Both the position numbers and the translations under genes were made by a program. From contig NZ_JACJPL010000031.1 of the NCBI RefSeq assembly GCF_014696065.1, positions 868,001-932,000 on the forward strand: a stretch of 64,000 bases of DNA, written 5' to 3'. Origin of the DNA: Leptolyngbya sp. FACHB-261 (GTDB lineage: Bacteria; Cyanobacteriota; Cyanobacteriia; FACHB-261). The notes beneath the pieces are model-generated. The model ran no database searches. It saw only the letters and a list, made by a program, of their open reading frames with translations, and was not told where the DNA came from. Positions 54,170-57,002 of this stretch are shown piece after piece; positions within the stretch are counted from its first letter, which is position 1, and each line of letters opens with the position of its first letter.

Positions 54170-54242
<73 letters not shown>

Positions 54243-54741: not shown

Positions 54742-55155
54742 CTAGTTCAGGGATAGATCTTGGTCAGTGAGAGAGCTGCTTGAGCTTGTGCCTGGGTTAG
54801 ATTTTTCTAGCGTAGGTGGAGAGTAAGCGCCAGCATTGGTTTCTGTTGCTGACGCTAGATCATTTTCGCTACTGCTTCTCGCTTCCTCCACAGCTTTTTC
54901 TAAATCTTCTAAGCTCTGCTGAGCTTGCCTCGCCTGCTCCCCAATTTCTCCACCCCGGTCTTGAGAAGCAATCCACCAAACTTGAAGAACACTATACCCA
55001 GCACTTAAAATAACAACGACTAAGACTAGTATTACTGCAACCCTGAGTGAATCATTCAAGATTGATGTAAGCTTTCGACCACAGTTAGGGCAACTGGCGG
55101 CCTTGGGTGAGACCATGTGCCCACAATCGGGGCAAGATTTTAGGCTGTTCGCCAT
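54742..55155 (-). CDS. Zinc-ribbon membrane protein, C-terminally truncated
   Basis: The 137-residue product starts with a zinc ribbon (CPDCGHMVSPKAASCPNCG; Cys 8, 11, 22, 25). One transmembrane segment follows (about 39-60; VAVILVLVVVILSAGYSVLQ), then an acidic coiled-coil region (EQARQAQQSLEDLEKAVEEA) and a Ser/Thr-rich tail. The TAG stop interrupts a longer ancestral frame whose C-terminal domain survives as a relic just downstream. The remaining protein may still be made but would lack its probable extracytoplasmic functional domain. Confidence 0.7.
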   Translation of the reverse strand: MANSLKSCPDCGHMVSPKAASCPNCGRKLTSILNDSLRVAVILVLVVVILSAGYSVLQVWWIASQDRGGEIGEQARQAQQSLEDLEKAVEEARSSSENDLASATETNAGAYSPPTLEKSNPGTSSSSSLTDQDLSLN

Positions 55156-55272: not shown

Positions 55273-55740
55273 CTATCGATTTAAGCTTGGTGATTCTTTG
55301 CTTAAGTAAGCTCTGAAGTCTTGCTGAGCTGTTGGGTGATAACCTCCATGATTCAACCACGCAAATAGGGTCTTCTGTACCTCGTATGAGATTGCTACAT
55401 CAGTGGCAATCAACCGTGCAAAATGCTCGCAATTCCAGCCAAGCAATCCGTAGTCCCAAGAGCCAAAACATCTTAGGGCATGGGTTAGACGCTCGATAGT
55501 CTCACCAGGATTGAAAGCGATCTGGTCAATACCAAGCACAAAGTTAGCGTTGACTGTACGGCTTTCAAAGGTCTGCATGCCTTGCCCCGTATCAAAGATC
55601 AGGTCATCTGACAGCCCAATTCCGTAATGCCACACGAAGTCATGCCAATTAAGTAGCTTGCCATAAAATTCACTGTCCCGGTTGACATGACGCTTAATGT
55701 CTCTGATTCTTTCTTCTATCTCTTCAATGGATAAAGCCAT
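55273..55740 (-). CDS. LRAT-like (NlpC/P60-fold) domain protein
   Basis: The 155-residue protein has a His in WHDFVWHYGIGLSDDLIFDT (about 32-51) and a Cys in GLLGWNCEHFARLIATDV (about 98-115). HYGI and NCEHF are the hallmark motifs of the lecithin:retinol acyltransferase/H-REV107 group, thiol enzymes that act as acyltransferases, phospholipases or amidases. There is no signal peptide. It is the last gene of a three-gene minus-strand set after two small hydrophobic proteins, suggesting action at a membrane. The actual substrate is unknown. Confidence 0.75.
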   Translation of the reverse strand: MALSIEEIEERIRDIKRHVNRDSEFYGKLLNWHDFVWHYGIGLSDDLIFDTGQGMQTFESRTVNANFVLGIDQIAFNPGETIERLTHALRCFGSWDYGLLGWNCEHFARLIATDVAISYEVQKTLFAWLNHGGYHPTAQQDFRAYLSKESPSLNR

Positions 55741-55861
55741 CTATTCACTCCAGGTGCTCTCATTGCTTTAGGGCTGTGTAGCAGTGAATAGAAAAACAGA
55801 AGACAAATAGCTCTTTAAGTCTTATTGTCTAGGAGCTACTTACGTAGTTAAGTTCTGGTTT

Positions 55862-56104
55862 TTACTTTTGAGGAGGGCTTATGCACTCATTCGTTTTGCA
55901 GGCTCCATAATAAGCCAATCCGCCTGCAGCTATGATCCCTGCTACTGGCAATGCAACAGTGGTGGTTGTGGTTAAGCCAACAAATCCTAATACTCCTGGC
56001 ATTGGAGCAGTGATGGTGGCTACCGTTATTGAGCCTAAACTTGCGCCTGCCGAGGCAAGCGTAGCTAGGAAGGAAGCTAGAGCTTTGACGTCATTCTCTT
56101 GCAT
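55862..56104 (-). CDS. Small glycine/threonine-rich membrane protein
   Basis: From ATG 56104 (GGAG six bases upstream) the protein is 80 residues. It has a short charged N-terminus (MQENDVKALASF) and then an almost continuous hydrophobic region of about 55 residues in two or three segments (GASLGSITVATITAPMPG; VLGFVGLTTTTTVALPVAG). It ends in a cysteine-containing polar tail (GACKTNECISPPQK). It lies 20 nt after the 109-residue gene and upstream of the LRAT-like gene. I do not recognise the family. The composition resembles pore-forming or bacteriocin-like peptides, but that is only a resemblance. Confidence 0.62.
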   Translation of the reverse strand: MQENDVKALASFLATLASAGASLGSITVATITAPMPGVLGFVGLTTTTTVALPVAGIIAAGGLAYYGACKTNECISPPQK

Positions 56105-56124
56105 TATCAACTCCTACAGTTCTC

Positions 56125-56454
56125 TTAGAGAGAATCCTTTAGCTTGAGCTTCAGTTCAAGTGAGATAGGTAGACTATCTATTTCCCTGGCAAGACTCTCT
56201 TTGGACTCGTTCTTTCTACGTTCTGCATAAACACCGGCAAGCAGAAAATCAATCCCATATTTGCTTAGAGCGTCAGCAACAAGTCCTGCAATTCCTAGCA
56301 GCCCTATGCCACCTAGCATACCGAATGGGCCACCTAGGGCTGCTAGAGCTGTTGTGATTGCGGCAGCGCCAGCAAAACCACTGAATGCCATTGTGACGAC
56401 TAGCATGACACCAGGAAGCCCCAGCGCAGCAAGTTTTCTGACTATTTCGTCCAT
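56125..56454 (-). CDS. Glycine/alanine-rich hydrophobic membrane protein
   Basis: The 109-residue protein has a short N-terminal helix (MDEIVRKLAALG) and a long hydrophobic hairpin (about 13-62; MLVVTMAFSGFAGAAAITTA and GGPFGMLGGIGLLGIAGLVA). A charged C-terminal helical part follows (YAERRKNESKESLAREIDSL). It starts at ATG 56454 with AAGG upstream and leads a three-gene set with the 80-residue membrane protein and the LRAT-like protein. The GxxxG-like glycine spacing suggests tight helix packing or oligomerisation. Family not recognised with confidence. Confidence 0.65.
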   Translation of the reverse strand: MDEIVRKLAALGLPGVMLVVTMAFSGFAGAAAITTALAALGGPFGMLGGIGLLGIAGLVADALSKYGIDFLLAGVYAERRKNESKESLAREIDSLPISLELKLKLKDSL

Positions 56455-56621
56455 CTAGAACCTTGGCTACAAGCTTGAGAACACTGCGTCTACCTTGACA
56501 GATGTATTCACAGAGAGCTGTAAAGGTGCAGTGAAGCAGCATCAAGGTTGTCAGTAATTATAAGGTCACTTCCCTGAAAATCAAAAAATACGTTGTGTGA
56601 GGTGGCAGAGCAAGCTATTGA

Positions 56622-57002
56622 AGCGGATGTACAGGATCAAATCGCTCTATACAAGGTGCATACATCATAGGAGGGAAGGAAAACATCATTGCATCTATAG
56701 AAGTAAATGTTGTAAGGGACACGAGTAAGCCCACAATCATACAACTCATCAATCAGCTTCAACGGGTGCAGGGCATAACTGATGCAAACAGAGCAGATTT
56801 TGCCAAGTCTCATCCTCATATTGTTTTCAGAAATGGCATAGCTATCTACACCTAGAAAAACTATGCAGGCGTTGATCATGTGTTCATTACTGATCGCTCA
56901 GGAAAATGTGTTTATGGAGGGTATGTTAGCTGGGTGCACTCGGAATGCCTGAAAAGCTCTCTTCAAGCACTACATAGCGAGTTGAGAGACTATATTGTGT
57001 AA
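56622..57002 (+). pseudogene. Broken gene, one internal stop, unknown family
   Basis: The frame in register with 56622 reads GAYIIGGKENIIASIEVN, then TIIQLINQLQRVQG and HPHIVFRNGIAIYT up to TAG at 56853-56855. It continues in the same frame with NYAGVDHVFITDRSGKC, YGGYVSWVHSECLKSSLQ and a TAA at 57000-57002. Both halves are clearly protein-like and join naturally, so this looks like a roughly 125-residue C-terminal piece disabled by one stop. No start codon or upstream continuation is evident because another stop lies at 56619-56621. Function unknown. Confidence 0.6.

Follow-up and report, generated by a model that had tools for sequence, protein, structure and literature searches.

Acyl-modifying thiol enzymes of the LRAT/PLAAT fold are known for lipid mediators in animals and as phospholipase toxins in bacteria. 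In LRAT, the catalytic triad is Cys-His-His (PMC10318531). The permuted NlpC/P60 phospholipase toxins Tox-Act1 and TseH belong to the same superfamily, with a His/Cys dyad, and Tox-Act1 cleaves PG and PE in a His- and Cys-dependent manner (PMC12994826). Another relevant comparison is provided by the EAD/VMAP conflict systems, in which constant small domains are combined with interchangeable effectors, LRAT and dynamin not being mentioned in the paper that describes them (PMC7159879). Likewise, LRAT is not mentioned in the EAD/TRADD-N papers, and no paper joining LRAT domains with cyanobacteria was found in the literature library searched.

The window analyzed here is a stretch of 64,000 nucleotides from Leptolyngbya sp. 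FACHB-261, the sole member of its order in a comparison set of 388 cyanobacterial genomes. Three minus-strand genes, with the places (55273-56454) and lengths given by the original prediction, follow each other in the order GLY1, GLY2, and LRAT-like enzyme, with gaps of 20 nt (GLY1-GLY2) and 121 nt (GLY2-enzyme) (Table 1). The start retained for GLY2 is an ATG, two codons inside the frame reported by the ORF lister. All three are real genes rather than chance ORFs, since other genera have relatives whose reading frames are intact and conserved. The flanking gene that accompanies tRNA-Phe is presumably guaA, a name read off the protein sequence without a family search.

Table 1. Features of the LRAT-like locus (positions within the window).
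Feature	Position	Strand	Description
tRNA-Phe	54170-54242		flanks the locus on one side, with guaA
Zinc ribbon + one TM helix protein	54742..55155	-	137 aa; next gene downstream of the enzyme
LRAT-like permuted papain-fold thiol enzyme	55273..55740	-	155 aa
NCEHF motif (residues 103-107), nucleophile Cys104	55420..55434	-	N103-C104-E105-H106 invariant in 25/25 family members
HYGI motif (residues 38-41), catalytic His38	55618..55629	-	invariant in 25/25 family members
Perfect 9-bp inverted repeat CTATTCACT/AGTGAATAG	55741..55791	-	covers the ribosome-binding region of the LRAT-like gene
GLY2	55862..56104	-	80 aa from ATG; small, glycine-rich
GLY1	56125..56454	-	109 aa; glycine/alanine-rich helical membrane segment (residues ~4-64) + charged C-terminal helical pair
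Candidate promoter TTGATT-16-TATAAT	56557..56584	-	~100 nt before GLY1; consensus match only
Broken DHIF domain gene	56757..56984	+	TAG in frame where Trp is usual; lacks the N-terminal membrane segment
Response regulator	57206		flanks the locus on the other side

Sites matching the promoter consensus are about as frequent as expected (five found vs 3.7 expected). The 9-bp inverted repeat, for which the z value is weak (-1.75), possibly acts as an operator or as a translation-blocking hairpin; because it covers the ribosome-binding region of the enzyme, separate control of this gene is possible. The zinc-ribbon/TM gene lies 118 nt downstream of the enzyme gene and may belong to the same transcript as the trio. 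It was rejected as a fixed partner, as no relative was found beside relatives of the enzyme and 49 genomes yielded a single weak match. Integration at the tRNA-Phe was rejected as no direct repeat of its 3' end was found, a weak test because a generic tRNA end served as the search pattern. Plasmid carriage was also rejected, with zero matches for either the enzyme or GLY1, and no GLY1 was found on viral contigs.

The enzyme had been assigned to the LRAT/H-REV107 class from its HYGI and NCEHF motifs, and this assignment is borne out by its structural neighbors and by the residues conserved in its family. Indeed, when an AlphaFold2 model of pLDDT 93.4 was compared with the PDB by Foldseek, human HRASLS/PLAAT structures took the first five places (probability 0.95-0.98, E 0.02-0.06). 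In VIA-align, nine rows reach Z >= 5, of which eight are PLAAT entries (Z 5.8-6.9) and one is a Euglena respiratory complex I subunit (Z 8.0), and unrelated rows stand at Z 4.5 or below; as a Z under 8 is indecisive by itself, the argument is taken from the agreement of motif, element order, and ranking. Alignment, model, and structural neighbors all display a permuted papain fold with a His placed before the NCEHF Cys, as in the PLAAT/HRASLS (H-REV107) and LRAT proteins of PF04970. A sequence search of the PDB with the enzyme family or the GLY1 family gave nothing credible. Across a 25-member alignment, His38, Tyr39, Trp102, Asn103, Cys104, Glu105, and His106 are invariant; the original prediction had been staked on the conservation of the Cys and His in homologues, and neither His38 nor the N-C-E-H around Cys104 ever varies in these 25 relatives.

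The enzyme nevertheless differs from the described members of this fold. Its Pfam LRAT match (E 2e-4, 22.0 bits) is below the gathering cut-off of 24.3 bits, as are those of two fusion members tested, and weak LRAT matches occur in 17 of the 25 family members. The position of the second LRAT His, 12 residues past His38, is occupied by Asp50 in the enzyme and by Asp, Asn, or Ser in its relatives, a correspondence read from motif register rather than from superposition. The enzyme is thus named LRAT-like, because its score falls just below the Pfam cut-off and the second catalytic His is absent: it has the permuted papain fold without being a full PF04970 member. Compared with PLAAT and LRAT proteins, it lacks a C-terminal membrane anchor and has extra C-terminal helices. 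It shares with Tox-Act1 and TseH the His/Cys dyad and a predicted action on membrane lipids, whereas the source locus shows no secretion-system context and no recognized immunity gene.

With a threshold of E 1e-3, relatives of the enzyme are found in 38 of the 388 genomes, with strong matches in about 30, and are either stand-alone or fused. In Nostocales (L021, and similarly L062-L073), the LRAT-like domain is C-terminal to a Ser/Thr protein kinase (Pkinase E 1e-42), possibly constituting a kinase-coupled lipid enzyme. In L079, it is fused to pentapeptide repeats, and the L078 protein includes a short N-terminal segment that recurs where the next gene begins. The neighbors of these genes differ from genome to genome. 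At L074:3639-6843 (genome G059), EAD1, AAA, and vWA genes of conflict-system type are found near DHIF and near genes for an LRAT-like protein and a glycine-rich coiled-coil protein. A 184-kb viral contig carries a relative 46% identical to the enzyme (L194:3980-4426, plus strand) beside genes of DUF1501 type, a family encountered mainly in Planctomycetes.

The GLY1 family, which is strongly conserved, occurs in 54 of the 388 genomes and combines a glycine-rich segment with a charged tail IxxLPISxELKLKLK (looser form IxxLPISxELKxKLK), both being present in GLY1. In an alignment of 32 relatives, D2, G12, L37, G45, G49, L53, and G67 are invariant, and identity of GLY1 to 31 relatives ranges from 40 to 70%. 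The AF2 model (pLDDT 78.6) is helical throughout, with a long helix at residues 45-79 and a confident C-terminal pair; its membrane part is moderately confident (pLDDT 53-65 over residues 21-50). Both small proteins had been described as almost wholly hydrophobic, which holds for the first ~65 residues of GLY1 but neither for its last ~40, forming the charged helical pair, nor for GLY2, which is moderately hydrophobic (three 19-residue windows just above 1.6). No Pfam match or published description of the GLY1 family was found; assignment to DUF3693 was rejected, the match being below cut-off, and the small proteins gave only weak matches to holin models.

The neighborhood of GLY1 genes is often populated by lipid- or membrane-acting proteins. 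In five loci (L108, L111, L118, L120, and L124), GLY1 immediately follows a LamG-patatin phospholipase gene, and this phospholipase is found nearby in two further ones (L109 and L112). Four of these loci, from one cyanobacterial family (L108, L111, L118, and L120), also include an ABC transporter and resemble the source locus in that a lipid-acting enzyme adjoins GLY1, whereas the patatin fold is unrelated to that of the enzyme and some of these loci are microviridin-like. More generally, NRPS and microviridin-like genes are located near some GLY1 loci. Dynamin_N GTPases stand beside GLY1 in L109, L114, and L119. On the minus strand of L114 (8238-9530), the GLY1 domain is joined via extra hydrophobic segments to an Exo_endo_phos (EEP) enzyme; this gene adjoins a pair of dynamin-like GTPase genes. 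Fusions of GLY1 with the DHIF domain occur in L104 and L116, and such a fusion is split by a frameshift in L159. The GLY1 family is therefore a recurrent membrane component, often tied to lipid- or membrane-acting proteins.

GLY2 relatives were retrieved in 17 genomes at E 0.01, and in nine genomes besides the source genome at E 1e-4 or better. In seven of these nine, a second small glycine-rich gene lies close to GLY2, five being recognized by a fixed composition criterion (with a background of 1.9% of random positions) and two by alignment, namely an overlapping gene in G294 and GLY1 itself in G313. Judged by this frequency, the pairing of small glycine-rich genes truly recurs, with a partner that varies. 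In G313 (L096), the GLY1-GLY2 pair adjoins genes for an SNF2-type helicase and an Hsp70-like protein, the latter not named by Pfam. Tandem GLYX + GLY2 pairs were observed in L135, L136, L139, L140, L142, L151, and L152, and are tripled in a row in G154.

DHIF is a domain of ~80 aa with the pattern G[IM]T..H..DF...P...L.DG..V..W.NP.GV.H.F...MI[FY]GG[FY]VGW[IV]H, found in 157 of the 388 genomes, mostly as the C-terminal part of alpha/beta hydrolases of ~300 aa (L156-L182). The proteins scanned gave no Pfam family match for it, and no published description was found. Just upstream of the trio and divergent from it, the plus-strand copy at the source locus matches DHIF with E 3.9e-17 and is probably a pseudogene, because it contains one in-frame TAG where Trp is usual and has lost the N-terminal membrane segment, whereas many cyanobacteria have intact copies. 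DHIF lies within 2 kb of the LRAT family of the enzyme in three genomes (G000, G059, and G175) vs 0.017 expected (p 8e-7), a linkage that persists without the source genome (p 1e-4). The arrangement is not always operon-like, being convergent in G175 and divergent and broken at the source locus.

Cyanobacteria have a second family of LRAT enzymes, LRAT-B, with a score (30.4 bits) above the Pfam LRAT cut-off. Its genes are grouped with a DHIF gene on the same strand, in small clusters (L158, L160, L162-L165, and L183-L190), so that an LRAT enzyme adjoins DHIF as at the source locus, whereas LRAT-B aligns with the enzyme family only around the NCEH motif and is not accompanied by GLY1. DHIF is within 2 kb of LRAT-B in six of nine genomes vs 0.015 expected, with five of the six from one genus, so that independent events number about two; the Poisson model used for these linkages also takes no account of ancestry. 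L162 encodes DHIF joined to a J domain.

The original prediction of a module was to be given up should the three genes never occur together elsewhere, and by this standard the trio as a fixed module fails. Indeed, an LRAT-like gene adjoins GLY1 in the source genome only, without a second case in the 388 genomes, and the genomes that contain both families are not more numerous than by chance (seven vs 5.3 expected, Fisher p 0.26); a conserved operon was thus rejected. The enzyme and the GLY1-GLY2 membrane pair could then be chance neighbors, the LRAT-like gene being unrelated and independently transcribed between guaA/tRNA-Phe and the response regulator. This serious rival, to which roughly a third of our belief is given, agrees with the varying neighbors of the enzyme among genomes, and an independent gene is permitted by the 121-nt gap and the hairpin of its own. 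The fusion partners of the enzyme family, namely a Ser/Thr kinase and pentapeptide repeats, are not membrane parts, which also speaks against a unit. On the other hand, the three genes share a strand and no terminator-like site was found between GLY2 and the enzyme. In a genome with both families, such proximity has a total probability of < 0.01, with the caveat that the case was selected for that very proximity. It is mainly because of DHIF, which independently links both families and is present at the source locus, that pure chance is not the preferred call. Still tentatively, since it falls somewhat short of an even chance, the best explanation is a PLAAT/LRAT-like lipid enzyme with a glycine-rich membrane pair, drawn once from a mosaic. 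Instead of a fixed new machine, the trio seems to be one combination out of a set of membrane-acting parts. The original suggestion that a lipid enzyme has membrane partners is supported indirectly, through the ties of the GLY1 family to other lipid- and membrane-acting proteins, but not for this specific trio, which is not conserved.

Two further readings concern what the proteins would do. In an abortive-infection defence, which we consider unlikely, the enzyme would attack host membrane lipids upon infection and the glycine-rich proteins would permeabilize the membrane. The patchy distribution of the enzyme family (38/388), its relative in a viral contig, the EAD1, AAA, and vWA genes of L074, which are parts of known conflict systems, and the SNF2 helicase and Hsp70-like gene of L096 are consistent with such a role. 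GLY1 also resembles hydrophobic stretches of LeoBC, BnzA, and PDC-M09A in PADLOC (E 1e-4 to 1e-2), but these are low-complexity matches, weak and maybe due to composition, that were not counted as evidence of membership. The known defence genes looked for nearby were not detected by PADLOC, whose matches around the locus are to domains of generic type (aminotransferase, methyltransferase, and receiver), suggestive contexts being confined to the relatives in L074 and L096. The window has no sensor gene, and unlike in EAD/VMAP systems, EAD, NTPase, and VMAP are absent among its proteins scanned with Pfam around 46.5-63.6 kb. The commoner GLY1 contexts are phospholipases, NRPS, and transporter genes, and a defence role of the locus is possible but weak. 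Less probable still, the enzyme would be a PPPDE/DeSI-like isopeptidase cutting protein-peptide bonds instead of lipids. This activity would agree with a His-Cys dyad that lacks the second His, and 11 of the 25 family members match Peptidase_C97 weakly (PF05903; 15.8 bits vs a cut-off of 29.2 for the enzyme itself), but the LRAT model fits better and in more members, the structural neighbors are PLAATs, and the accessory domains have lipid enzymes as partners. DeSI/PPPDE structures do not appear in the Foldseek and VIA-align lists, an absence compatible with such a relation.

The locus would most likely encode a membrane-targeted lipid hydrolase/acyltransferase module, of mosaic composition and accessory nature. 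As a small cytoplasmic thiol enzyme, the LRAT-like protein would split off or transfer the acyl groups of membrane lipids, its inferred substrate, by means of His38 and Cys104, in the manner of its permuted NlpC/P60 relatives. GLY1 and GLY2 would insert in the membrane as small glycine-rich proteins, GLY1 with its hydrophobic part embedded and its charged helical tail toward the cytoplasm. Together, they may form a membrane platform that brings the lipid enzyme to its substrate or that is switched by the enzyme; alternatively, they may form a pore. Elsewhere in cyanobacteria, the GLY1 domain occurs next to, or fused within, other proteins that act on lipids or membranes, and DHIF, broken here, is a second accessory domain joining both GLY1 and LRAT-type enzymes. 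The results themselves concern the fold, the catalytic residues, the family memberships, and the linkage statistics; from these, a lipid substrate, recruitment to the membrane, and co-transcription of the genes are deduced. The occasion for such activity may be membrane remodeling, or membrane damage under stress or attack.

A broader and more speculative proposal, to which we give about one chance in four, is that cyanobacteria possess a mosaic of membrane-lipid effector modules, so far undescribed, in which interchangeable enzymes (two LRAT-type families, patatin, EEP, and alpha/beta hydrolase) share GLY1 and DHIF in the manner of the constant adaptor domains of bacterial conflict systems. 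The finding would name two small domain families, GLY1 and DHIF. An enzyme family of this kind in photosynthetic bacteria, if its membrane and accessory partners indeed recur, would also offer a tractable route to the role of LRAT/PLAAT-fold enzymes in cells that make them for their own use.
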